Shown here in pieces: positions 38,486-54,567 of a DNA stretch of 64,000 nucleotides (position 1 is the stretch's first letter; every line of letters begins with the position of its first letter). A model generated the notes under the pieces. That model saw nothing but the letters and a program-made list of their open reading frames with translations. It was not told where the DNA came from and did no database searches. This DNA is from an uncultured archaeon (lineage in GTDB: Archaea; Thermoplasmatota; Thermoplasmata; Thermoplasmatales; Thermoplasmataceae): contig CP009479.1 of assembly GCA_000965745.1 (NCBI GenBank), positions 124,001 to 188,000 of the forward strand. Reading direction: 5' to 3'. The translations under genes were made by a program, and so were the position numbers.

Positions 38486-39740
38486 GGGTGTCCCCTAAAA
38501 GTTGGGGGTAACCTGAGACATCCTGCCAACAGATAGCTTATATTCTTGGGCACTGAAGCCATAGGACCGCTTGAATGCGATACGGATCCTGTTTTTTCAG
38601 GCCTTCAACAATGCCTGAACTTATGCCCGATCTTATTGCTTCGAGAATGCCTTCCATGTGCCGCCACATGGACTTTGCAAGCCTGATGATCTCGGGCATC
38701 CTTGACCTTCTTGCCCAGGATATCCACTTTGCAAGATAGTCCACAACCATCTCATTTCTCAGGGACCAGAGCCTCTGCAGTGACTCCTTGAAATGATATG
38801 CATGTGTGACCTGGAGATCGAGCTTCCTGATATCTTTCAGCTTCTCCTTCTGCTTTTCACTGAGCTTATCAGGATTCATGAACAATGTGTACCGAGTGCC
38901 CTTGAGTATGACATTCTCCCTGGCCTCCTTCCTCCTGATTTTATCAAGTGCATCGTTCATCATCTTGATCACATGGAAGTGATCAAAGACGATCTGAGAG
39001 TCGGGGATATACTTCTCAGCACCGGATATGAACGATGGATCCATGTCCATGGAGACATGCTCTATTCCTTTCGGATCAATGAACGGATTCTTCTGCAGGA
39101 ATCTGAGGAACACCTCCGATTCCTTTCCCTCCTCGATGTGAATTATCCTGCTGTTCCTTATGTCGTAGAACAGCGTCGCATAAACATGATGCTTTTCAAC
39201 TGAGAATTCATCAACTCCCGGCACTGAAATATCCGAGATATCCTGCTCCTTTCTTGCCTCTTCAACATAGTGCCTGAGGATTCTCCACACAGAATCGTCG
39301 CTTATTCCGATCATTCTTGATACGGCGAGTGGAGGCATTTCCCTGCACATCTCCACTATCATCGCCTCGAAGTGAAGGGAGAAGCCTGATCCCCTGCTTG
39401 CCCATGGCATGTCCACCGTCTTCTTCCCATGCTCGGAGCAGAGTATCCTAAGCTCCCTTGCATGCACGTACGTGGGGTACTGGAAAATGTTCAGGTGCCT
39501 CCATGTCCTCTCAGTTGTGTCGTGCACTCCCGCCGATTCATGACACACGGGACATGGGAATTTAGAGCCTCTGGGGAAATCAATGGTGATGTCCACCCTC
39601 TTCTCATTGTGATCAAACCTTATTTCCTTTATTTTCCAGGGTTCCTCAAGGCATAGAAGCTTACTGAACAATCCCTCTGAATCCATGGATTGTGATCGAA
39701 AAGGAATTTATTATTTACCCCCAGTGATCGAGAGAGAACC
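38486..39740 (-). mobile_element. ISL3-family insertion sequence (near-complete copy)
   Basis: 1255 bp. The outermost 26 bases of each end form an imperfect inverted repeat: both begin GG and share the inner GGGGGTAA; about 15 of 26 positions match. The element encodes one transposase (frameshifted). An 8-bp target duplication, usual for ISL3, is not seen (TTTAATAT on the left, TCTTTTAT on the right). The right end lies inside a neighbouring gene. A second, truncated copy is at 52224-52838 in the same orientation; homology to it ends at the same right tip, which confirms the boundary. Confidence 0.8.
38495..39686 (-). pseudogene. ISL3 transposase with frameshift near the 3' end
   Basis: Reads as 382 residues ending at 38538, but the true C-terminus is in the +1 frame. 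At the A-run on the coding strand (T6 at 38592-38597) removing one A turns the tail into VEGLKNRIRIAFKRSYGF..., the normal ISL3 ending, which then stops at 38495 for about 396 residues. N-terminal zinc-finger Cys pair FPCPVCHE, HTH around LAVSRMIGISDDSVWRILRH, and DDE residues in PGVDEFSV, SMDMDPSFISG and SSGIVEG. Either a real frameshift or rescued by slippage on the A-run. A 12-bp palindrome AATCCATGGATT covers the start codon. Confidence 0.8.
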
Positions 39741-40373
39741 TCTTTTATTCAACACATCCTGAACCAATGGCATGAGTTCTTCAGGTATACGCAGGTCCCT
39801 CTTATCAAAATCTATAATTTTTGACAGCTCAAGTTCAGACAGCAATGTGTTGTAGCCCTGGCCTTTTACACCTTGTTTGAACCCTTTCCTCCCCGCCAGT
39901 GTCTGGTTCTCGTAGTAGTTTCTATATCTTCTCCCCTCTTCATTAAGTTCTAAAATCGCATTGAGGACTGATCCTCCTTGGTTTCCAAATTTTTCAAGGA
40001 ATTCTTTGATCCGATCTCTGAACATGTCCCAATTTGAACTTTGTGTGAACTCCTTATTTTTTCCATTAAACGTGTAATATTCCCCGTTGAAATCATAGAA
40101 ATCGTTGAGCATCTCCTTGTTTTGTGATAGCCAGTCATTTAACTTCTGATCTGAAATCAGCCTTGCAACCTCTTTGGTCACTTTGTCACTATCAAATCCT
40201 TTGTATTTGTCGTCGTAGCCGTTATCATTGAAGCCAAGACAGTAGTCCGATTTCAGTTCTCTGCACAACTTGAACAGTAGGTTTTCCTCCAGGGTTCTGC
40301 CAGAATAAGACTGAGGACATATTTTTGAAAGGAGAAGAAATCGCTCTTCCTCTTTAGAATTATGTCTGCTCAT
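39711..40373 (-). CDS. Unknown protein whose C-terminus is supplied by the IS end
   Basis: 220 residues. Acidic, tyrosine-rich middle (NDWLSQNKEMLNDFYDFNGE), with no family recognised. The last nine codons (GSLSITGGK) lie within the ISL3 terminal inverted repeat, so the IS has replaced the native 3' end; the original protein was probably longer. Base composition is more AT-rich than the neighbouring chromosomal genes, as in other island genes. Confidence 0.6.
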   Translation of the reverse strand: MSRHNSKEEERFLLLSKICPQSYSGRTLEENLLFKLCRELKSDYCLGFNDNGYDDKYKGFDSDKVTKEVARLISDQKLNDWLSQNKEMLNDFYDFNGEYYTFNGKNKEFTQSSNWDMFRDRIKEFLEKFGNQGGSVLNAILELNEEGRRYRNYYENQTLAGRKGFKQGVKGQGYNTLLSELELSKIIDFDKRDLRIPEELMPLVQDVLNKRGSLSITGGK

Positions 40374-40815
40374 ATTTTGTTAGCAGTAATCTGGATAAAT
40401 ATCTTTCCCTTCATGACATAATGTATTGACTCATGTGTTCCGACCCGTTAAAATCGCTTCTAATCGAACCAGAATGACACCTTGAGTTGAGTCTATGGGG
40501 CACCCTTTTTCTTTCCATTAATCTTCCATCACTTGTAACTTCACGGGTCAAGCTTGCACGGAATTCAAGAAGTCATTTCTTTCAGAGTAGACGCCGAGTA
40601 GGCAAGGATCAGACTGGAAAATGCAAATCACATGGTATCAGCAAAAGTAACCAAAAAATAGCGTAACAAAACTTCTCCCTGATGTCGGTGATTATGTGAG
40701 GGGGAAAGATCATCTGGAGTTCATATCATGCCTGATTAGTGCTTCACCGAATAGCTCTCGCCCTTCTGAATGGTAAAAATGTTTATATTCTATATCACGT
40801 AAATCCCGATAGAGG
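40374..40815. other. 442-bp intergenic stretch in the island
   Basis: No convincing gene. Holds the promoter of the 40816 operon: TTTATATTC around 40780-40790, about 28-30 bases before the GTG. A short open stretch (LLPDVGDYVRGKDHLEF, about 40675-40780) may be a remnant of a lost gene. Sequence is AT-rich and shows no tRNA or repeat array. Confidence 0.45.
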
Positions 40816-41913
40816 GTGTTTTTAATCGAGACTCAGAAGTTGACTGCAAAACTAAAATATGCTTTTAATGAACTGTCGAAAGACAGGGGTGTTGGATATA
40901 ACCTATTTTTCGTTTGGCCTGTATTCTCGCAAAACCTGATTTATACACTTCAGAAGGCTGGAGCAGAAAAGATCTCACCAAACCAATATCGTGTTATGTG
41001 TACTCAGAACGATGTCAGTTTCTATAGAACGAGGAAACTGTTCGGATCTGATTTTGTTGTAAATGTCTTGGAAGGTGATCAGTATGGCGTTGTAAATGGA
41101 GTTATTAATAAAACGAATTGGAGGGATATTGGAAAAGCAAAATTGGCATTACGCGAGGTTGGACTTAACAACGTTAGCATAACACCTACCTCGTTGTACA
41201 ATTTTTTACTTAACACTCATAATTACGAAGGTTTTCTTCTGAAAGAGTACAGAGCAGGTGCCCCCAAGCTTCAATCTTACTTTAAGGATGACCATGTAGA
41301 TGTTAATCAGAGAATTGTGCTAGAAAAATTAGAAAATGATTGGGCATACGGAATCCGCCCCTATCAAGCAACGCTTAAAGAACCCAGTAAGAGTGTCGAG
41401 ATAAGATTTTACAGTCAAGGTTTTATTTCTATGGCTGTTCTTCCAAAGAGCTTTGGTGTTGTTACAAAACTTATAAGCCACATGTTTAAGGATCATCAAA
41501 AGGCTTTAAATAAGGTATCAGAAGCTGGTAGAGAGCGTTTAAAAACTCCCTCGGTCAACTTGGTTAGACACAAGAATTTGATCCTAAGGCTTGAAGATTA
41601 TGATACTGCATCGAACGGCAAATCACAATCGGCCTTGAGTTACGATGAGGACCGTTTAAATAGCCTTCTTTTGTATCTATCGGAATTTGCCGAGATCTAT
41701 GGAAAGAGGATAGAGGGGCGTTCGTTGGTTTTTAACCTATTATATGAGAAGACACCAGAAAGCGATGAAGTTAATCCAACATTTTCAGTAGACATAACCC
41801 CTAAAAGAGTTCTCGTTAGCCCTACGGGCCCTGTGAACAAAGAGAACTTGATCCATCTGTATTACGGAATAGAAAGGTTCTATAACGTAACTTCAAAGAG
41901 TGATGTAAATTAA
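40816..41913 (+). CDS. Unknown island protein, first gene of a two-gene operon
   Basis: 365 residues from a GTG. No known domain recognised. Mixed alpha/beta character, with a conserved-looking middle (NDWAYGIRPYQATLKE, SVEIRFYSQGFISMAVLP) and a C-terminal SLLLYLSEFAEIYGKRIE. No membrane segment or signal peptide. Lower GC and different codon use (TTA, ATA, AAA frequent) from the flanking chromosome indicate transfer. Coupled to a downstream gene with a nuclease-like pattern, so a defence role is plausible, but it is inference from position only. Confidence 0.7.
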   Translation: MFLIETQKLTAKLKYAFNELSKDRGVGYNLFFVWPVFSQNLIYTLQKAGAEKISPNQYRVMCTQNDVSFYRTRKLFGSDFVVNVLEGDQYGVVNGVINKTNWRDIGKAKLALREVGLNNVSITPTSLYNFLLNTHNYEGFLLKEYRAGAPKLQSYFKDDHVDVNQRIVLEKLENDWAYGIRPYQATLKEPSKSVEIRFYSQGFISMAVLPKSFGVVTKLISHMFKDHQKALNKVSEAGRERLKTPSVNLVRHKNLILRLEDYDTASNGKSQSALSYDEDRLNSLLLYLSEFAEIYGKRIEGRSLVFNLLYEKTPESDEVNPTFSVDITPKRVLVSPTGPVNKENLIHLYYGIERFYNVTSKSDVN

Positions 41914-42952
41914 ATCTCCAAACAAAGAGAAGAGGGAAACTCATATCCGAAGAGCAATCGAACATGCAAAATTCAAATATGTAATTCAAAGGTTGTTCAA
42001 CGACGAAAATGCTACACACGGACACGCTTATCTGGCGTCAGACATTTTTACCTCATTAGAGGATAAGAAGGATGGGTCATGGGACCTCTTAATATGTGAA
42101 ATAGAGGGCTTAGTAAAGAATGAGATCCACCCTATATTTATTGAGGTCAAGTCAACCTTCGAAGACAATGAAAAGTTAGTGGGAGAGATTGTAGCCAAGA
42201 TCAAAAAAACTGAAGAGCTGGCCAAGAACAACGTTCAAGACCTGATACTATCTCAAATATCGGCTGTTGACCCAAAGAAATTCACAATGAGGTGGGATAA
42301 AGCCGAATATGTTGTATTCATTCCAGGCAGACTTTCCATGGGCATCGTTGACTATATTGCCTCTAATTCAAAGAAATGGAAGAATAAAACAGGACTGGTG
42401 ATTTGGTCATACGACAAGGGAGACACTGAACGAGATGTAATACAAATTCCTTATAACCATAGAAATGATATCAAGACTTGTCGAAATATTGACAATGCCA
42501 AATGTAACCTATGCCTATGTAATCATTATAGCTCAAAGATGGCCTCGTTCTTCAGGCATGTTGACAAGCAGGAATTGGAAAAGCCAAGAATAATGCCTTC
42601 TAAGCACAAGTATGTAGACCCAGTTGTAAACATTATTTCAATACTTCACGTGGGAAAATTATTCAGATCTAATGAGAAGAATCTCACCTTGAACGACATC
42701 AAGGAACGTGTTAAACGTTTTTTTATTGATTATAGTATCGAATTGGACAAACAAGAGATTGAATTTTTGATTTACCTGATGAATCGCGGAAAGATTATCC
42801 TTAAAACAAAGGGAGATCCAATGGGAGCTTATCACTTGAATAAGGATATTGCAGATGCTCTAGAAGATGAGAAGCTATTAACGGAAGAAATCGTGAAGCG
42901 AACAGTAAACAACAAGCTGCCTGACACCTTCCTCGAACAATTTGATAAATAG
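41909..42952 (+). CDS. Putative PD-(D/E)xK nuclease, second gene of the operon; possible ATT start
   Basis: About 347 residues if started at the ATT at 41909, 319 from a TTG at 41993. The extra upstream codons (IKSPNKEKRETHIRRAIEHA) read like protein, and AGAGTGAT, a Shine-Dalgarno-like site, is 4 bases before the ATT, which also overlaps the upstream stop. Near residue 60-85: SWDLLICEIEG then PIFIEVKSTFEDNE, giving D-x(17-20)-ExK of the PD-(D/E)xK nuclease superfamily. A later Cys cluster (CRNIDNAKCNLCLCNH) may bind zinc, and the C-terminal third looks like winged helix. Probable DNA-cleaving component of an undescribed two-gene system. Confidence 0.65.
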   Translation: MKSPNKEKRETHIRRAIEHAKFKYVIQRLFNDENATHGHAYLASDIFTSLEDKKDGSWDLLICEIEGLVKNEIHPIFIEVKSTFEDNEKLVGEIVAKIKKTEELAKNNVQDLILSQISAVDPKKFTMRWDKAEYVVFIPGRLSMGIVDYIASNSKKWKNKTGLVIWSYDKGDTERDVIQIPYNHRNDIKTCRNIDNAKCNLCLCNHYSSKMASFFRHVDKQELEKPRIMPSKHKYVDPVVNIISILHVGKLFRSNEKNLTLNDIKERVKRFFIDYSIELDKQEIEFLIYLMNRGKIILKTKGDPMGAYHLNKDIADALEDEKLLTEEIVKRTVNNKLPDTFLEQFDK

Positions 42953-43543: not shown

Positions 43544-43912
43544 TCAGTATTGTTTTCTTTCTCTGGACTTATTTTCTAATCCGTATTTTTTAATTTTTTC
43601 GTAGAATGACTTTGGTTTGTTATCCACCTTCAATATAACAACTTTGATGTTATGTGGGCAGTCACCGTGCAGTCCTGAGTGCGCAATTTCACCGTCAATG
43701 TAGGAATCGCAACTCGCGTATGCATACAAGGATTCAAAGGGTGCCCGCATCCCAACTCCGCCACTGATAATGTCTCTGTGAAATCCGTTAAGGCTACTAA
43801 GCCTATATGTTGCTATCCGCCAGTCATTCCATTGTCTTCTTACCTTTACCAGAGTCTCTCTAGGATTCATCTCTTCGTTAGGCTTGCCCTTATCACTTTT
43901 CACTAAAATCAC
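43544..43912 (-). CDS. Unknown protein Y, last gene of the type I R-M operon
   Basis: 122 residues. Its GTG overlaps the hsdR stop by 4 bases (GTGA), so it is translated with the restriction subunit. Contains [20 protein letters not shown] and [20 protein letters not shown], a mixed alpha/beta fold with several His/Cys/Asp residues but no recognised family. Could be an anti-restriction control, an accessory nuclease or a passenger. Confidence 0.55.
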
Positions 43913-46900
43913 TCTCCCTTGGCAATCAATTCAGCCTGCTTGATGACAGTTTCTGTTGCCTTCTTCTGCTTATCAGGAGGATAGCCATATTTCCTGAGTA
44001 TTCTCTTGACAGCTGCCCTGAGCTTAGCACGAACGTTCTCCCTCACTGTCCAGTCTATTGTTTTATTCTTCTTTACAGTGTCAACGAGTTCCAGAGCAAT
44101 CTCCCTCAGCGTTTCGTCTCCGAGAACCTTTACTGCAGAGTCGTTCACTTCAAGGGCATCATAGAATGCGAGTTCCTCTTCCGTCATCTTGAGGTCCGAA
44201 CCACGATCCGCGGATGCCTTGACCTCCCTGGCGAGTCCTATGAGTTCCTCTATTACCTGTGCTGCTTCCACTGTGTGGTTCTCATATCTCTTTATTGCAT
44301 CTTTGAGCATATCGGAAAACAATCTGGATTGAACCAGGTTCTTCCTCATGTGCGTACGAAGTTCATCGTTGATGAGTTTTTCAAGCAGTTCGAGTGCGAG
44401 ATTCCTCTGCCGCATGCTCTTGATTGAATTCAGGAACTCATCAGACATTATGGGGGATACATCCGGTTTCTTTATGCCGGCAGCCTCGAATATGTCAATA
44501 ATGCCCCTAGAACCTATGGCTTCAGAAATGATCTGCCTTATGGCTGTATCTGTCTCCTCCCTGCTTCTTTCCGTCGATACCGTGTGCTTGACGATCTGTG
44601 CCTTTATCGCCTGCAGGAATCCAACCTCGTCTCTCACCTCCAGAGCTTCCCTCATGGGAACTGCAAGGGAAAATGCCCTTGACAGTTCCGTTACTGCCTT
44701 TACAAATCTCTCCTTCCCCTGATCAACGCCGAGAATGAAGTTCAGAGCGTTGACAATAATGGTCATCCTCTGGCTACTGCCGGATCTGAAATATATGGAA
44801 TAATCAAAGCCGTGGAAGATATCCCTGCATACTTCCAGTTTCTCCAGCATGACCTTTACTGCTTCTTCCTGGTCAATACCAACGTCCCTCCTGTCTGATG
44901 GAGAATATGAGATAAGAGCACTCTTGAGATTGTATCCTATGCCGATGTAATCGACAATGAGGCCTCCCTGTTTATCCTTGAATACCCTGTTAACGCGGGC
45001 AATGGCCTGCATCAGATTATGCCCTTGCATGATCTTGTCAACATACATCGTATGAAGGATAGGAGCGTCAAATCCTGTGAGCCACATATCCCTGACTATT
45101 ACAATCTCAAGTGGATCATTGGGTCTCTTCAATCTTGAGGCAATATGCTCCCTTCTTGCCTTGTTTCTGATATGAGGTTGCATTTTCTGGGGATCGCTAG
45201 CAGATCCTGTCATTATGACTTTAATAGCACCTGTATCATCCTGATCGGAGTGCCATTCCGGTTTGATCCTGGTGATTGCATCATACATTTCAACGCAGAT
45301 CCTTCTGCTTGTGCATACGACAAGGGCTTTGCCAACCAATGCTGATTCTCTGGCTTCAAAATGCCTGACAATATCAGAAGCGATCTCGTCAATCCTGCTC
45401 TGTGTTCCGACAATGGCTTCTAATCGGGACCACTTGCTTTTCAATCGATCCTGGACTTGTTCTCCCTCCCCTTCTGTTATTTCATCAATCTCCTTGTTGA
45501 TGGAATCCAGTTCATCACGCTTGACATGCAGCTTGACAAGCCTCGCCTCATAGTATATGGGCACGGTGAATTTATCCTCGACAGACCTTTCGATATCATA
45601 GATGTCGATGTAGTCGCCAAATATCTGGACAGTTGTTCTGTCGCTCAGTTCAAGAGGAGTTGCGGTGAACCCGATGAAGGAAGCATTCGGCAGTGCGTCA
45701 TGGAGGTGCCTTGCAAATCCGTCTATGAAATCATACTGCGAGCGGTGTGCTTCATCCGCTATGACGATAACGTTCCTTCTCCCGGTGAGGAGAGGATCCA
45801 TATCATCAGTATCTGGTACAAACTTCTGAATTGTCGTGAAAATTATGCCACCTGAAGCAACCTTGAGCAATTCACGGAGGTTCTTTCTAGTTTCGGCCTG
45901 CACAGGTGTCTGTCTCAGCACCTCATGGCATCTTGAGAAACCATCGAAGAGCTGATTGTCAAGATCATTCCGGTCGGTCATAACGACAATGGTTGGGTTT
46001 TCAAGCGCGGGGTGCTGAATGATCTTACCGGCGTAGAATATCATGGTGATGCTCTTGCCGCTTCCCTGGGTGTGCCATACAACGCCTATCTTCCGATCGC
46101 CATTTTCCGATATGGCATTGAGAGTATTGTTCACAGTGGCATTGACCGCATTGTACTGGTGATAGCCTGCAATCTTCTTTGAAATATTGGATTTATCAAC
46201 CTCGAACAGAATGAAATTAACAATGATATCAAGAATCCTGTCCTTTGAAAAGACATCGTGAACCACTGTGTTCAGATCCGGCTTCCCCACTGGAACATTG
46301 CTCTTCCCCTGAACTGATCTCCACGGCATGAATCTCTGCCAGTCTGAGGTTATGGCCCCAATCTTTGCATCAATTCCGTCTGAGATTACAACGATCTCAT
46401 TGTAATGGAATATGGTGGGTATGTCGTTCTTGTATGTCTGGATCTGGTTGAATGCATCCTCCATGGTTGCATTTTCATTTGCAGGGTTTTTCAGCTCCAT
46501 TATCGCAATGGGAATGCCGTTGATGAAGACAACAACATCAGGCCTGCGTTCCTGCTTCTCCGCAACTGTAAACTGATTCACTACAAGGAAGTCATTATTT
46601 CCAATGTTCTTTGAATCGATCAACTTGAGTGTATCATACCTTACCCTCCCATCTTGATCCTTTGATTCTATTGTGATCCCGTCTGTGAGGTAGCGATGAA
46701 AAATGTGATTGTTCTCAACGATGCTTGGAGCATGATATGTTGTGATCTTCTTGACAGCCTCTTCCCACAAATTGCTGTCAATATTGTTTATTCTTGATAG
46801 GGCAGATTTTAGCCTGTCATACAGGATAACTGACCTGTAATCTCTCCTTTCAGGTGCTGAACCATCATATGCAATGTCCGGTCCGTTCTTCACATCGTAA

Positions 46901-46965
46901 CCTACCTCTCTGAACCATTCAAGGGTAGCATTCTCTGCATCAGATTCAGTGAAGAAACTACTCAT
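43909..46965 (-). CDS. hsdR: Type I restriction enzyme, R (HsdR) subunit
   Basis: Motor/nuclease subunit of a type I restriction-modification complex; cuts unmodified DNA after translocation. 1018 residues. N-terminal PD-(D/E)xK endonuclease domain with [20 protein letters not shown]; helicase motif [18 protein letters not shown], motif [12 protein letters not shown], motif [11 protein letters not shown], motif [16 protein letters not shown]-terminal helical domain. All expected motifs are present, so the enzyme is probably active. It overlaps hsdS by 8 bases and gene Y by 4. Confidence 0.96.
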
Positions 46966-48175
46966 CCGTATCTCCCAGTGGTACGCGGATTTTTCCTGAC
47001 ATAAGCTTTGGAAGAAGAAAATCTCTTATTGAGACCAGCAATGTGCTTTCTCTTTGCGATAGATCTATTTTTTCAAGGATTTTTGCAGATATGGCACCAA
47101 ACAAATTCACCAAAGAGGATGGTGGCTTTATGGATTTTCTATCCAATACTTGATTCTTATTCAATCCTGGAACAGCGCTATGGGAGTTCATCCGATCCAA
47201 ATTTAAGAAACTCAAGAGGTAGTACCAGAAAGTAATGTTTGTCCCGTTTTTTACTTCGACATAATATGTAGTATCAATAGGCCAGAAATCTGTGAAGGAA
47301 AACCTTACTTCGCCAACTGTACCCTTCCTTCCTATTATTATGCCCGGACCTTCAACAAGATGTTTATCGTTATATCCCACTACACCATTTGACCCGAAGA
47401 CCGGTACATAGCCTTCTTGCCTTCTGTCTTGGCGTAGAGATTTTCCATAACGCAGGTCGATAGACTGCGCAATTTTCTCAACATTCCATCCCTTTGGTAT
47501 CTCTCCGAGTTCAGAATCAACCATTTCTCCTTCACTCGACTTATATGGATTTCCATTCTCATCTGGAAACTCAAAATCGATGAACCAGTGCTTGAATATT
47601 GCCTGTGCAGTGGATTCTAAGGTTTTGTTCATTTGTTGGTTGAGTTCGATTTTGGAATCGAGGTCAGCAAGTATCTTGGATATTACCTTTTGTTCCTTTT
47701 CCGGGGGACAGGGTACGATAGATTCTGCTATGACTTCTGCGGTTATTGATGGATACGCAGTCGTGCTGGTCTCAGCTATAGCTGACAAATAACTTGTGTA
47801 TTCATTAGTTGTAATAGAATAGTACAAAAAATCCGAATCTATTTTTCTTGGAGTCAAAACAACGAACCCGGTTGAGGCGATAGTACACGACTTGGAGCCC
47901 TTAATCCTACAGTAATGCTTCAAGTTTGGTCTCACAGAAGAAATCAAGATGTCTTTGTCTTGGACCACTCTTTTTGCTCTAGTTGGAGCTTCATTCAAGG
48001 ATAAATTTGTAGTTTTCCTGATTACCCCCTCCTCTACAGAATCAATGTCAATGTACTCTATGTACCGACAAGCTGTGTTTTTTTTCAGATTCTTTTCATT
48101 GATTGAGGCGAGTTCCTTCACAATTCTAGCGCTCCAACCATTGGGCAAATCGAGAGGAGAGCCATTTTGGTTCAA
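46958..48175 (-). CDS. hsdS: Type I restriction enzyme, S (specificity) subunit
   Basis: 405 residues: two target-recognition domains separated and followed by conserved coiled helices. The first ends in [20 protein letters not shown] plus [20 protein letters not shown], the classical spacer; the second begins [21 protein letters not shown]. The recognition sequence cannot be predicted. Together with HsdM and HsdR it forms the complete enzyme. Coding density and GC resemble the other hsd genes. Confidence 0.94.
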
Positions 48176-48211
48176 GAGTAGCCATCTCCGTTATAACTTT
48201 CAGATTTGCGT

Positions 48212-49018
48212 TCAATTTTCACTCTCAGTTTCCCCCACAATAACCATTGTTAAATCAAATGCTGCATTCAGCAAATTGGCGACATAATATAATTCATCAG
48301 AAATACTCTCCGATTGCTTTGTCTCAATCAATTTTTCGATATTCTTTTGTTTCTTTGGTTCCGTGATTTTCATCACGGAATCCTCTGCTTTCTTAGCCAA
48401 TTTCTTTGTAAAATTGGCATTTATTGACTCAAAGCCTTGTTGCTTTTGTTCATAAACTTGGAACAATTCTTTCCCAAGAATAGAGCCACTTTTTTTGATC
48501 CGTTCTGAATGCTGAACGAAATCTTTCTCCCCTTCTTTAAACGTAATGTAGTGCTGTTTTTTCTCATCAATCGCGTAATCTTCGCAATCTCGCAACGGAA
48601 TAAGCCTAGAGTTCTTAGTAACTTGCCGACTTAGGAATGCATCCTCAAATCTTTCGCCAGAAGAAACTTCTGGTGCCACATAATATGTTTCTTCATTACC
48701 AAGAATCTGTGCGTGCGCCCATAGGTGTCGATGTTGTTGGTTGTTGTTGGCTTTGTGAAGCTTAAATCTATAATAAGGACCACTGTATGTGCCATCTGCA
48801 ATGAACATCGAATTGCCTCTCGAATATCGTTCACTCAGCTTGAATTGGTAATAAAAGTCCTTTCCTCTAGTTGGTAGTTTAACATCCCATCCTAATTTCG
48901 CTTCTCCTCTTAGGCTTGGGAGAATTGGAACTCCGATGACTTTTCTCCATTTACGAAGGGTTTGTTCGTGAAGGAATGCATAGCCAAAGGAAAACTCAGA
49001 TAAACCTATATCTGCCAT
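48212..49018 (-). CDS. Unknown protein X between hsdM and hsdS
   Basis: 268 residues. Starts inside the last 13 bases of hsdM, so it is coupled to it. An N-terminal segment [11 protein letters not shown] ... [19 protein letters not shown] then [11 protein letters not shown] has a D-x(10-12)-QxK pattern similar to Mrr/Vsr-type variants of PD-(D/E)xK nucleases, though this is a motif-level reading. Lys/Glu-rich helical C-terminal third. Not a normal Hsd subunit; its place inside the operon suggests an additional effector, inhibitor or nuclease. Confidence 0.65.
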
Positions 49019-50637
49019 CCTATATTCTCCAGATTTACCTTTATCTCTTCATCCAATCTATTGCTCTCTTCCATCTGCTGTTTCAATTCAGAAGTTAGCT
49101 TCTGCATCTTTTTCTGGAATTCTTCATCATCGTCCTCCTGCTCTTCAGAACCGACATATCTTCCAGGTGTGAGGACATAGTTGTTCTGTCTGACCTCGTC
49201 AAGCTTCGAAGAATTGCAGAATCCGGGAACGTTTTCATAATGCCCGAATTCTGACTCGCCCCTCCATGCATGATAAGTGTCTGATATCTTCTTTATATCA
49301 TCCGGGCAGAATACTCTGTGTGTTCTGTCCGTCATTGTGCCCGATTTCCTGGCATCGATGAAGAGAGTTTCTCCTCTCCTGTCCCTGAAGTTGTGATTCT
49401 GCCGGTCTCTGGAAAGAAACCATAAACACGCGGGGATGGCAACATTATAAAACAGATTCGTCGGCAGTGCGACAATGCAGTCAACAAGGTCAGCTTCAAC
49501 CATCCCCTTCCTTATGTTGCCTTCATTGCTTGTGTTTGATGATAATGAACCGTTTGCCAGAACAAAACCTGCTGTACCACCGGGAGCAAGGTGATGTATG
49601 AAGTGCTGCACCCAAGCAAAGTTGGCACTTCCCGCTGGTGGTATGCCATATTTCCATCTCATGTCTTCCCTGTGGTTCTGGCCGTTCCAGTCGCTGTCAT
49701 TGAAAGGCGGATTCGCAAGAACGAAATCAGCCTTCAGGTCCCTGTGCTGATCCCTGGAAAATGTATCTGCATTGGTCTCTCCCAGATTGCCGTCGATGCC
49801 CCTGATGGCAAGGTTCATTTTGGCAAGTCTCCAGGTTGTTGGATTTGATTCCTGTCCGTAGACGGATATGTCGCCGATTCTGCCCCCATGGGCCTGTATG
49901 AACTTCTCGGATTGAACGAACATTCCTCCAGAACCACAGCATGGATCGTAAACCCTCCCGTGATACGGTTCAATCATTTCCACCAGCAATCTGACGATGG
50001 ATGCAGGTGTGTAGAACTGTCCCCCCTTCTTTCCCTCGGCAGATGCAAACTGACCGAGAAAGTATTCGTAAACTCTCCCAAGAATATCCTTTGATCTGTT
50101 TGACGAATCACCGAGGCCAATGCTGCCAACTATATCGATCAGCTGCCCGAGTCTCTCCTTATCCAGGGTTGGCCTGTTGTAATCCTTTGGCAGTACTCCT
50201 CTAAGTGAGGTGTTTTCCTTCTCTATTGAGTCCATTGCCTCGTCTATCATCTTCCCTATGAGGGGTGTTTTGGCAGCATTCTGTATCACATGCCATCTCG
50301 CATTTTTTGGAACCCAGAATATATTCTCACCAACATACTCATCACGGTCTTCAGGGTCCGCACCTTCCACTTTTTCCTCAAGCAATGCATTGTAGCGTTC
50401 TTCGAATGAGTCAGATATGTATTTTAAAAAAATCAATCCCAGGACAACATGTTTGTACTCAGCTGCATCCATATTGCTTCTCAGCTTGTCAGCAGCAGCC
50501 CATAGTTTTTTTTCTAGGTCGTGACCCCGGAATTCCTTAATGCAATCTTCCTTGTCTTTGTTGGGAGACGTCCGACCTTGTGATTGGACATTGTTTTGGG
50601 TATTGGTGTAATTGTCTAGTTTTGAATCTACCACCAC
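49006..50637 (-). CDS. hsdM: Type I restriction enzyme, M (HsdM) adenine methyltransferase
   Basis: 543 residues from a GTG at 50637 (or 554 from an ATG at 50670). N-terminal HsdM helical domain ([20 protein letters not shown]), SAM motif [12 protein letters not shown], catalytic [11 protein letters not shown] (NPPF), and a C-terminal target-binding region. It methylates N6 of adenine at the sites defined by HsdS. AAAATTTTATAC at 50656-50667 could serve as a TATA box 25 bases before the GTG, so I favour the shorter start. It leads the hsdM-X-hsdS-hsdR-Y operon. Confidence 0.95.
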
Positions 50638-50666
50638 TGCATACCGATTTAACGGGTATAAAATTT

Positions 50667-50927
50667 TCATCCTGCAACGATGTAGTTTTGTTTCTTCTTG
50701 AATATGAAATCAAACTGTTCAAACGTCAACTTGTTCTTGGTCTTCTCGATTTCTTAAGCCAGTTTCATAGCCTTTGTCTTCAGATCCTCTCTTGCTTCCT
50801 CACCCTTATTATATGCATCGAACGCGGTTTCACTCAGCATATTGTTCCAGAGAGGACATACAACAACAAATGTGCCTATCCTGTCCAGAATGAGGGGGAC
50901 CAAACCAATTGTACTTTTGAATTTCAC
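50667..50927 (-). pseudogene. Remnant of a small gene upstream of hsdM
   Basis: A frame from a GTG at 50927 gives 57 residues (with NNMLSETAFDAYNKGEEARE) to a TAA at 50754-50756, and protein-like sequence continues in the same frame after the stop ([20 protein letters not shown]) until 50667. The same character on both sides of the stop suggests a decayed gene, or a short gene with a readable stop. No family recognised. It ends at the hsdM leader, so it may once have been the first gene of the operon. Confidence 0.4.
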
Positions 50928-50997: not shown

Positions 50998-51017
50998 AGG
51001 GAAGATTGTCAGAATAT

Positions 51018-51497
51018 ATGCCAGACTCAAAGGTTCCCATTAGTACGTTCATAGAATTGTATAAGATCGAGAGTGGGCTGATTCAAAGGAAGGTTAATCA
51101 GATATTGACCATTCGTTCGATTTCTGTCACTTTTTTGGTTGGAATTCTTACTCTGATTGGGGTTCTTGGTCAAACTTCAATATCAATGGGTGTAGCTTAC
51201 GCATTGATTCTCTTGTTCATACCATTTTATTTACTAGAATCGGTTTACGATTCTCACCTTATACCAATGCATAACCGTGAACTTCTTTTGAAGGAGGAAA
51301 TAGCAAAAATGTTGAACTCGATTTACCCGGGAAATACCATTTCAGACGCCTACAAGACAAGTGGAGTAAGCCTATTTGATTTGTCACTTCACTGGCCCCT
51401 TTTCTATGCCCTGACGAGAAAGATTAGGATAGTATACTACGCGATAATCGTAATAATTTATGTATTAGTTGTCACTCTTATCACAAGCGTTATTTGA
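51018..51497 (+). CDS. Multi-pass membrane protein, candidate Pycsar effector
   Basis: 159 residues. A short polar N-terminus (about 25 residues) is followed by two hydrophobic helices (ISVTFLVGILTLIGVLG, about 34-50, and GVAYALILLFIPFYLL, about 58-75), a 60-residue polar, mostly helical stretch (HNRELLLKEEIAKML), and a C-terminal helix (IVYYAIIVIIYVLVVTLITS). This layout, and a stop that overlaps a nucleotidyl cyclase gene, match membrane effectors of the Pycsar class, which permeabilise the membrane when a cyclic pyrimidine nucleotide is made. No cyclic-nucleotide-binding domain is evident. A TTG at 51006 would add four residues. Confidence 0.65.
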   Translation: MPDSKVPISTFIELYKIESGLIQRKVNQILTIRSISVTFLVGILTLIGVLGQTSISMGVAYALILLFIPFYLLESVYDSHLIPMHNRELLLKEEIAKMLNSIYPGNTISDAYKTSGVSLFDLSLHWPLFYALTRKIRIVYYAIIVIIYVLVVTLITSVI

Positions 51498-51508
51498 GGG
51501 GAATGGAA

Positions 51509-52219
51509 ATGGCATCATGGGCAGACTATTCAAGAGCATCAAGATCTAGAATTAATGAATATGATCGGAAACGAAAAAAATACCCACCTAAGACCGGTTT
51601 GACAATGCCAGATCTCGAAGATTTGCAAATCGGTGGATCTAGGATGTTTCAATTGGCGGTATTGTCGATTGATATAAGGGGATTCACAAAAATAGCCATG
51701 GCTTACAACAACAAGGGAGTTGAAAGTTTAGCGAGAATTCAAGCCTTGTATCTGGCTGAAATGTCTAACATCATTAAAGAATATGATGGAGTTACTGAGA
51801 AATATACCGGGGACGGAGTAATGGGACTATTTGGAACTGAGTCTGATACTAACGCTATAAACGATGTTTCTAATGCGATAAAGGCTGCACTGACAGTGAA
51901 GTTAGTTCTCAAGAACTCTTTGAATCCATATCTAAAAGAGTCAGGACTGACTGAAATTCAACTTGGAATGGGGATCGATTATGGAACCGTCATGATGGAG
52001 AGAGTTGGTCTTAGAGGAGAAAACCAATTCTCGCTTGCTGGGCCTACTGTCAGCCTAGCTTCCAAAATGCAAGCCCAGGCCGAACCGGGGCAAATTATAA
52101 TCGGAGAAGATGTGAAGAAGAGGGTTCAGGGAAACGACTTGAAATTTGTAAAACCTCATAAAATCAATTGGGACTTCACATACCCATTATACCTTTATGA
52201 TGCTACCTGGAAAGAATAG
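51509..52219 (+). CDS. Class III nucleotidyl cyclase, candidate Pycsar cyclase (PycC-like)
   Basis: 236 residues. A 45-residue leader (MPDLEDLQIGGSRMFQLAVL) runs into the cyclase domain. Metal-binding Asp55 (LSIDIRGFT) and Asp102 (EKYTGDGVMGLFG) are present, so two-metal catalysis should work. The Lys used by adenylate cyclases in this loop is kept (Lys98), the second base-selecting position is Ser175 rather than Asp/Thr (FSLAGPTVS), and the transition-state Asn/Arg pair is Ser182/Lys186 (TVSLASKM). Base preference therefore cannot be inferred. Start: ATG at 51509 after GAGGGG; TTG at 51494 would overlap the effector stop. Ends 5 bases before an IS remnant. Confidence 0.85.
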   Translation: MASWADYSRASRSRINEYDRKRKKYPPKTGLTMPDLEDLQIGGSRMFQLAVLSIDIRGFTKIAMAYNNKGVESLARIQALYLAEMSNIIKEYDGVTEKYTGDGVMGLFGTESDTNAINDVSNAIKAALTVKLVLKNSLNPYLKESGLTEIQLGMGIDYGTVMMERVGLRGENQFSLAGPTVSLASKMQAQAEPGQIIIGEDVKKRVQGNDLKFVKPHKINWDFTYPLYLYDATWKE

Positions 52220-52223
52220 TCAA

Positions 52224-52838
52224 TTCCCTCCTCGATGTGAATTATCCTGCTGTTCCTTATGTCGTAGAACAGCGTCACATAGACATGATGCTTCTCCACC
52301 GAGAATTCATCAACTCCCGGCACTGAGGTGCCAGAATAACCCTCTTTTCACGTGCTTCATCAACATAGTGTCTCATGATTCTCCACACAGAATCGTCGCT
52401 CATCCCGATCATTCTTGATACAGCGAGTGGAGGCATTTCTCTGCACATTTCGACTATCAATGCTTCAAAATGAAGGAAGAAACCTGATCCCCTGCTTGCC
52501 CATGGTACGTTCACAGTCTTCTTTCCATGCTCATTGCACAGTATTCTGGTATCTCTGGCGTGTACATAGGCTGGATACCGGAACACATTCAGGTGTCTCA
52601 ATGTCCTCTCTGTTGTGTCGTGCACTCCGGACGGCTCATGGCACACAGGAAATGGGAATTTCGATCCCCTGGGGAAATCTGTTGTGATGCCAACTCTCTT
52701 CTCGCTGTGATCAACGCTGATACCCTTTATTTTCCAGGGTTACTCAAGGCCTAGAAGCTTCCTGAACAGTTCCTCTGAATCCATGGATTGTGATCGAAAA
52801 GGAGCTTATTATTTACCCCGAATGATCGAGAGAGAACC
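52224..52838 (-). mobile_element. Truncated ISL3 copy with decayed transposase
   Basis: 615 bp of the same ISL3 element as 38486-39740, in the same orientation. Retains the right end (26-bp tip GGTTCTCTCTCGATCATT...) and the transposase N-terminal half, but lacks everything beyond about residue 190. Coding is destroyed by TAA at codon 15 (52740-52742), a frameshift around 52320-52370 and the loss of one zinc-finger Cys (FPVC for CPVC). It marks the right edge of the accessory island. Confidence 0.85.
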
Positions 52839-52846
52839 AGTTTTAT

Positions 52847-53683
52847 TCAGAACGGGCTTTCAAAGTCAAAAAGTGTTCTTTTCCCAAGTTTTTCCACGTA
52901 ATCCCAGTATCTCCTGATAAAAGACCTCTGGAATTTCTTGCTGTTCTTCGGGAAATATATCTCATTGGCCCTTGCTGTTATCAGGCCAGCCTTGTCCAGG
53001 TCCTGGAGAAGCTCTGAAAAATCTGCCCTGATCATCTCCCTTTCCTCACCGACCGAGAATGCGTACGCCTCTGCAGAGGACTCGTAAAGGATGGTTGGAA
53101 GTGATGCTTTTCCCGTCCTTGCATAGTTGAGCGATATGAATGCAAACTTTACCAGAGGGTCAAGCTGGCTGATGTATGGATGAGGGAAGTTGCCTATAAT
53201 CCGCATACCCTCGTCAGAGGAAAGCTTCTTCAGGAATTCATCTGATGTTTCACCCTTGATCATTGCCCTGGCCGTAGATTTTTCTGTCGAGATCAGCCAG
53301 ATCATCTCAACCGGAAACAGATCAAAGGTTGATTCTCTCTTCAGGGGCTTCCCGTCTGCAATAATCAGGATGGAAGTGACCTTGTCCCTGCTTCCGGAGG
53401 TATCCTGCCTGTCATTTTCCATCTTCACCCTAAGGCCTTCTGCATCCTCAAGGTCGTCGGTGGTAGCATATGCGTAAAAAAACTCGTTTGATTCACTCCT
53501 AGAGACTGTCCGGACTGCCTTTATTCTTGAGTAGCCCTCCTCGATCCGGACATCTTTGACTGAAAGCTGGAGTTCACCGTAATTCTGCTGGATAAGGGAG
53601 TATGCTGCAGAGAGCAGCTCATGCTGCCCCAGGTTCCTCTCAGATTCTTCCTGGCGCTCCCTGATGATTTTCGGCGAGGTCAT
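52847..53683 (-). CDS. Unknown protein, second gene of a two-gene unit at the island edge
   Basis: 278 residues. Segments: HELLSAAYSLIQQNYGELQL, ADGKPLKRESTFDLFPVEMI, LLQDLDKAGLITARANEIYF; the C-terminus has a winged-helix flavour. The stop at 52847-52849 lies 9 bases beyond the IS tip, so the gene appears complete or only slightly trimmed. GC and codon use resemble the chromosome. Overlaps the upstream gene by 4 bases. No function assigned. Confidence 0.7.
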   Translation of the reverse strand: MTSPKIIRERQEESERNLGQHELLSAAYSLIQQNYGELQLSVKDVRIEEGYSRIKAVRTVSRSESNEFFYAYATTDDLEDAEGLRVKMENDRQDTSGSRDKVTSILIIADGKPLKRESTFDLFPVEMIWLISTEKSTARAMIKGETSDEFLKKLSSDEGMRIIGNFPHPYISQLDPLVKFAFISLNYARTGKASLPTILYESSAEAYAFSVGEEREMIRADFSELLQDLDKAGLITARANEIYFPKNSKKFQRSFIRRYWDYVEKLGKRTLFDFESPF

Positions 53684-54567
53684 CTAACAACATCTCCTTC
53701 AATGCTTTCAAGAATGTCCAGGAGCCCTTCCATCTTGGAGTTAAGGGTCGGCAGGAATTCCAGCGAGTTCCGGTCAAGGTCTATCCTGTATGTTGACCGC
53801 TCATTTCCCCTGTGGAATGCGTAAAACGAAGTGACGCTCCCGGAGCTTCTTATCTCCCCAACGTTGAAATTCCTCCTTATTCTTGAGAAAAATTCCTCTT
53901 TCTGCAGTTCACTTGCAAGCCTGACCGAAAGCTTCTCGACGGGGACAAATTCCTGGTGGTCCAGTTTCATCTTGAGCCTGAGGTGGCTCAGTTTCTCCAG
54001 CATGTCCATATCAGCCTCTATCACGGCAGTTGAGGTCCTGTAAATAAGTTCCATCGCGTCCCAGTACCCACCGTGTATGAAATAATTGAAATCCTTCCTG
54101 ACAGTGACCTTCGAGCTGTCCTTGCTGAACGTCAACAGGAATGGTTTCATCCCCTTCTCCTCGTTCTCCTTCATCAGGTTTATAATGTCTTCTGAATGCC
54201 CTGCACTCCCCGGGGACTTGACATCAAGCCTACCGTTTCCTGATGAGCTGAACCCGTAGAGATCGTATCCCATTAATTTCGCAATATCCATCAGCCTGGA
54301 AAATGAGCTCCCCCGGATCTTCAGGAAGTCAAAATCGTCATAAAAATCCTCCCTGAATGTGGCATACTCGCCATGGGTGAGGGAGGACTGAATAAATCTG
54401 TAATTCTTAATGACAGGTATCGACCTGAGATCGAGATACTGCTGCCTGTGGATCTTGCTTATGAAAAACTCGCCAGGCGTACGGACAAGCGTGTATCTAA
54501 CTGTTCTCCCGCGCGAGAGTTTCGGGAGTGATTGCAGTGCAAGTTCCCTGAATTCTTCAAGCTCCAC
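53680..54567 (-). CDS. Unknown protein, first gene of the two-gene unit
   Basis: 295 residues from a GTG at 54567. Motifs: HRQQYLDLRSIPVIKNYRFI, YATFREDFYDDFDFLKIRG, GGYWDAMELIYRTSTAVIEA. Two parts (about 1-150 and 150-295) of alpha/beta and helical type; no family recognised. The partner gene starts in the ATGA overlap at 53680-53683, so the pair probably forms a complex. AT-rich GATATATATG at 54571-54580 is unusually close to the start. Confidence 0.7.
   Translation of the reverse strand: MELEEFRELALQSLPKLSRGRTVRYTLVRTPGEFFISKIHRQQYLDLRSIPVIKNYRFIQSSLTHGEYATFREDFYDDFDFLKIRGSSFSRLMDIAKLMGYDLYGFSSSGNGRLDVKSPGSAGHSEDIINLMKENEEKGMKPFLLTFSKDSSKVTVRKDFNYFIHGGYWDAMELIYRTSTAVIEADMDMLEKLSHLRLKMKLDHQEFVPVEKLSVRLASELQKEEFFSRIRRNFNVGEIRSSGSVTSFYAFHRGNERSTYRIDLDRNSLEFLPTLNSKMEGLLDILESIEGDVVR

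Follow-up and report, generated by a model that had tools for sequence, protein, structure and literature searches.

Here, we report that two adjacent genes, ORF1 and ORF2, lying in a window of 64,000 nucleotides (i.e., the whole stretch of DNA analyzed, positions 124001-188000 of G000, a genome of 2.23 Mb in one contig), form a rare mobile pair, and that u295/u278, another pair in the same window and a common one in the archaeal family of the source genome, appears to be its chromosomal relative. The ORF1/ORF2 module is real, mobile, patchy and often broken. What is new here is the remote homology of ORF1 with u295 and a probable link between ORF2 and u278. Our best guess, held tentatively, is that the mobile pair encodes a nuclease of two components that serves in defence.

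The gene pair, its island and its recurrence

ORF1 (40816-41913, + strand), the first gene of the pair, starts with GTG and encodes 365 aa; ORF2 (41909-42952, +) encodes up to 347 aa and would be a PD-(D/E)xK-like nuclease with a winged-helix-like tail. Both reading frames are intact in the window (365 and 347 codons) with all conserved residues present, and the two-gene operon proposed in an earlier sequence-only reading is found as described, the same gene order recurring in divergent loci. A TATA-like box, TTTATATT, was read from the sequence at 40782-40789 (+), 27-34 bases upstream of the ORF1 GTG, a position consistent with a leaderless archaeal transcript of ORF1; a similar box also precedes the second copy of the pair in this genome (copy 2). 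From 41909 on, where it overlaps the stop of ORF1, ORF2 has an open frame with no ATG, GTG or TTG upstream of 41993, i.e., a canonical start is absent. The TTG at 41993, which is the listed start, is probably too late, because ORF2 residues 1-28, encoded upstream of it, align with both other ORF2 copies. We infer that translation may instead begin at an ATT codon that overlaps the ORF1 stop and follows an SD-like GAGTGAT (41898-41911, +). The start of ORF2' in copy 2 is likewise non-canonical, an analogous ATA overlapping the stop of the first gene, and the second gene of the copy in the draft genome G028 has an ordinary ATG. A programmed frameshift fusing ORF1 and ORF2 is unsupported as a conserved shift, since in the genome's two copies ORF2 stands in different frames with respect to ORF1.

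The G+C content of ORF1 and ORF2 is about 38%, against 47% for the window, in agreement with the foreign base composition claimed earlier, and the claimed island location likewise holds, the pair lying between two ISL3 copies together with a type I restriction-modification (R-M) system. The left island edge is an ISL3-family transposase (38538-39686, -), and the right edge is a partial second ISL3 copy (52224-52849, -; 84% DNA identity to 39125-39751) that carries a transposase fragment (52275-52646). The two copies flank a low-G+C island of roughly 13 kb in a composite-transposon-like layout. The R-M system (43909-50670, -), which is context outside the pair, comprises HsdR (43909-46965), HsdS (46958-48175) and HsdM (49006-50670), and together with PycC-like genes it gives the window pair a defence-gene neighbourhood. 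Two orphan genes matched no family, one of 268 aa between hsdM and hsdS (48212-49018, -) and one of 220 aa and low G+C between the left ISL3 copy and ORF1 (39711-40373, -). Also inside the island is a Pycsar-like pair (51006-52219, +), consisting of a class III nucleotide cyclase (51494-52219; PADLOC PycC model, E 3.6e-30) and, before it with a 4-base overlap, a 163-aa protein that has hydrophobic segments of membrane type and is matched by neither PADLOC nor Pfam; Pycsar in Thermoplasmata deserves separate attention.

Copy 2, at 1.135 Mb of the same genome, has the pair in the same order at 24-29% identity, with ORF1' frameshifted near its N terminus. Two Thermoplasmata MAGs of the same family as the source genome, which places the host in the Thermoplasmata as well, carry further copies: G028 (JAJYRA010000004.1), with a full-length ORF1 and an ORF2 interrupted by two in-frame stops, and G020 (JAJZXT010000007.1), in which ORF1 runs off the contig end. 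A fourth genome, G011, retains a C-terminal ORF2 remnant alone, next to a gene that, on our reading of the frames, is apparently a transposase. Adjacency and gene order are shared by three divergent loci, and the ORF1 profile matches 3 of the 117 genomes of the order. This is a small family, the profiles resting on four ORF1s and three ORF2s, and draft-genome copies may carry assembly errors. One genome-contig scan found no relative of the pair and a second found the same two Thermoplasmata MAGs and no others; the searched phages and plasmids and four viral-contig scans yielded none, these collection scans being based on short peptide patterns that distant members can escape. The sampled phylum outside the family gave no convincing relative, and matches in G110 and G365, which were short and partial, were taken as chance.

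Most copies beyond the window are broken, a frequent fate of accessory nucleases that are costly to keep. This raises the question of whether the pair is a decaying hitchhiker of the island with no present function. The copy 2 frameshift, the stops in G028 and the G011 remnant would all fit, as would the missing canonical start of the window ORF2; the window frames, however, are both intact at their full 365 and 347 codons and keep every conserved residue, and we consider decay unlikely.

As to surroundings, the pair sits in mobile or defence settings. An association with hsd genes, as expected of accessory genes of a type I R-M system, was not seen in the relatives: neither the neighbourhood of copy 2 nor the examined stretch around the G028 copy revealed an R-M system. 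Copy 2 adjoins tRNA-Glu and a DUF5906 (primase/helicase-like) gene. That it might be an element integrated at the tRNA and flanked by a second attachment repeat was rejected, because the tRNA-Glu 3' end is present once in the whole genome. An NYN RNase with an OST-HTH/LOTUS domain is encoded in the copy 2 region (L006 1666-2493, -), and the G028 copy lies 1.2 kb from a DndB/DpdB-like (DGQHR) gene of 675 aa with a weak HEPN match (L020 11003-13030, -).

Proposed nuclease residues of ORF2 and the conserved block of ORF1

The segments WDLLICEIEG and IFIEVKST (D...ExK), to which attention had been drawn earlier, are present in ORF2, and the proposed catalytic set to which they contribute, i.e., E33 (42005-42007), D59 (42083-42085), E79 (42143-42145) and K81 (42149-42151), all on the + strand, is identical in three of three ORF2s, with E79 and K81 forming E79-x-K81. 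Invariant columns number 35 of 278 ungapped columns overall, so the chance that four given positions are all invariant is about 2e-4. The interrupted ORF2 of G028 was read through for search and folding alone. The hallmark of PD-(D/E)xK enzymes is one or more conserved acidic residues ahead of a (D/E)xK motif carried by a beta strand, and ORF2 has this arrangement. A profile of 23 Thermoplasmata Hjc proteins compared with ORF2 singled out the IEVKS strand (25.1 against a shuffled maximum of 22.2), and the weak AlphaFold model of ORF2 (mean pLDDT 37) agrees with the PD-(D/E)xK core in the order of helices and strands. Taken together, ORF2 is probably a PD-(D/E)xK nuclease.

No database family was recovered for either protein in Pfam, NCBIfam or PADLOC (PADLOC to E <= 1; Pfam for ORF2 to E 10), nor did PDB sequence searches with the pair return anything convincing, and PHROGs gave weak ORF2 matches without assigned function (best E 0.0028). 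This bears out the earlier remark that the 365-residue first product matches nothing known. Foldseek with the models, which were built from two or three sequences (mean pLDDT 37 for ORF2, and 43), returned nothing at E <= 0.001; models of this quality speak neither for nor against a single nuclease site. Hjc shares with ORF2 the E ... GS..D ... IEVKS arrangement and, in the profile comparison, an aligned ExK strand; unlike the ORF2 pair it is single-domain and has no such partner, and the genome encodes its own Hjc elsewhere (G000:C1:806399-806749). Hjc was rejected as the family of ORF2, since the ExK strand alone aligns, over eight columns. In TnsA of Tn7 a winged helix lies behind the PD-(D/E)xK domain, an order of domains that ORF2 would share; membership in the TnsA family found no support, there being no Pfam match for ORF2 (to E 10) and no DDE transposase partner, since ORF1 is no transposase by Pfam. 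The winged-helix-like character of the ORF2 tail (residues 261-310; 42689-42838, +) is tentatively suggested by how the helices follow one another in the weak model and by a comparable region of the relatives. Four clustered cysteines (191, 199, 202 and 204) are present in ORF2 as had been pointed out, but the cluster is not conserved among the other ORF2s, and a metal site there was therefore rejected.

In ORF1, 14 of the 19 invariant columns fall into one block, EYRA-x5-QSYFKD ... G[IL][KR]PYxAT (residues 141-188; 41236-41379, +), which looks like a working site. The likeness of ORF1 to RdgC and to RnlA/LsoA (TBP-like domains with a HEPN toxin) consists of weak fold matches of the ORF1 model, RdgC being the top PDB match (E 4.6e-3, TM about 0.25), while the sequence-profile scores equal shuffled controls. 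Both were rejected as relatives of ORF1: RnlA scored 14.6 against a shuffled mean of 14.0, and RdgC 14.2 against 15.3. Two further viral-contig scans supplied RnlA and RdgC relatives as sets for comparison. RdgC was also rejected for the u295 family, with 20.8, below the shuffled maximum of 25.

The chromosomal pair u295/u278

The genes u295 (53680-54567, -), first of its pair, and u278 (52847-53683, -), which starts within the end of u295 with a 4-base overlap, are situated just outside the right ISL3 copy. Like ORF1/ORF2, they form a two-gene operon whose members adjoin or overlap, are comparable in size and follow one another in the same way. The first clue to a link was the u295 motif GMKPFLLTF, which resembles GIRPYQATL of ORF1. 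The u295 profile (19-20 relatives) was then compared with an ORF1 profile of four members; the two align over 173-215 columns at a score of 53.6-55.2 and a probability of 91-92, and the controls stayed at 19 or below in 60 shuffles and at 18 with a reversed profile. The match persists when any one ORF1 is dropped (36-49) or the window u295 is dropped (54.3); single ORF1 sequences score 20-30 against the u295 profile. When the u295 profile was ranked against a pool of the window's frames plus the extra pair copies, the ORF1s of the window, G028 and copy 2 came directly behind u295 (E 1.3e-4 to 1e-3), and the truncated G020 ORF1 did not reach significance. We consider the link firm, ORF1 being a remote homologue of u295; u295 differs from it in having no QSYFKD block.

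For the second genes, the N-terminal halves of ORF2 and u278 are colinear over 126 columns (27.9 against a shuffled maximum of 11.8 in 60 shuffles); the C-terminal halves give no profile alignment, and the full-length match fades once one ORF2 is dropped. The nuclease half of ORF2 is thus probably homologous to u278, the link being modest. The u278 family differs from ORF2 at the decisive positions, with no conserved equivalents of E33, D59, E79 and K81. The two matches would place two versions of one operon type in the window.

Across the relatives, u295 was found in 20 of 121, within the sampled phylum exclusively in the same family, and an overlapping or abutting second gene is nearly always readable behind it, the exceptions being due to a contig end in one case and masked bases in another. 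In relatives it neighbours the gene for glutamine synthetase, accompanied in several genomes by aconitase genes; alternatively, it sits between a MoxR/DUF58 operon and the genes for Dph2 and class I LysRS. The position of u295/u278 looks vertical and housekeeping-like (loci L079-L110 in relatives), in contrast to ORF1/ORF2, which has no housekeeping chromosomal position and sits in the ISL3-bracketed island. From this position, and from the site just outside the right ISL3 copy, we take u295/u278 of the window to be native to the chromosome and ORF1/ORF2 to have been acquired; given the housekeeping surroundings and absent catalytic residues of the former, ORF1/ORF2 would be its mobile, catalytically equipped sibling.

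This relationship bears directly on the claim that the pair is a defence system, which is weakened, not refuted: defence genes share its island, but its nearest homologues are housekeeping-like and without catalytic residues, and for that reason the family would not be purely one of defence. No homologue with a known non-defence job was identified. A nuclease pair for DNA processing (repair, recombination or replication) in integrated elements, akin to u295/u278 and with no defence role, is worth weighing and in our estimate possible, if rather improbable. The conserved housekeeping loci occupied by the u295/u278 relatives speak for it, as do the tRNA-Glu and DUF5906 gene beside copy 2 and the Hjc-like ExK strand of ORF2; yet the window copy lies within a defence-rich island, the pair is patchy and frequently broken, and copy 2 lacks the second tRNA-end repeat that marks an integrated element.

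The two pairs may also be armed and disarmed siblings, i.e., ORF1/ORF2 an active nuclease and u295/u278 a domesticated, catalytically dead relative that guards the cell against that mobile nuclease or has become newly structural, which we regard as unlikely. u295 is present in G000 and G020, whose mobile pair shows no damage in its readable part, and none was detected in G028 and G011, where broken copies alone were found; this co-occurrence is consistent with such siblings but a tiny body of evidence.

Possible roles of the pair

Returning to the defence reading, the proteins of ORF1 and ORF2 may form a complex, in which ORF1, via its EYRA/QSYFKD/GxxPY block, would recognize or license a target and ORF2 would cut DNA, most likely that of invading viruses or plasmids, with its winged-helix tail possibly helping to bind DNA. 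Initiation at AUU, the probable start of ORF2, with coupling to the ORF1 stop, may hold the amount of nuclease below that of the partner protein. In favor of defence are the gene order kept despite 24-29% identity, the invariant catalytic set, the helix/strand order of the weak ORF2 model, the patchiness, the type I R-M, Pycsar-like, DndB/DpdB-like and DUF5906 genes and the tRNA-Glu nearby, and the mostly broken copies; against it stand the housekeeping-like u295/u278, the lack of a PADLOC match, models of too low quality to reveal a nuclease site, and the lack of a relative among the phages, plasmids and viral contigs searched.

Another reading is a toxin-antitoxin (addiction) pair, with ORF2 as nuclease toxin and ORF1 as antidote, translated first and in larger amount. 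Its gene order, the overlap with the upstream stop, the weak non-ATG nuclease start in both copies of this genome, the mobile setting and the broken copies elsewhere are all compatible with addiction. An antidote as large as its toxin, with one highly conserved block resembling a working site, fits less well, u295/u278 retains both genes despite the absent catalytic residues, and G028 has a full-length ORF1 beside a broken ORF2; we hold addiction to be unlikely.

The pair would enlarge the known content of archaeal islands by an uncharacterised nuclease module of two components, from a lineage in which defence has been little explored. The link to u295/u278 offers a first point of entry to this common pair of chromosomal genes, and with the same operon present in one genome with and without catalytic residues, domestication or self-protection becomes directly testable. 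With a chromosomal cousin that lacks the cutting residues, the role of ORF1/ORF2 is itself now testable, and defence against viruses is the leading guess.
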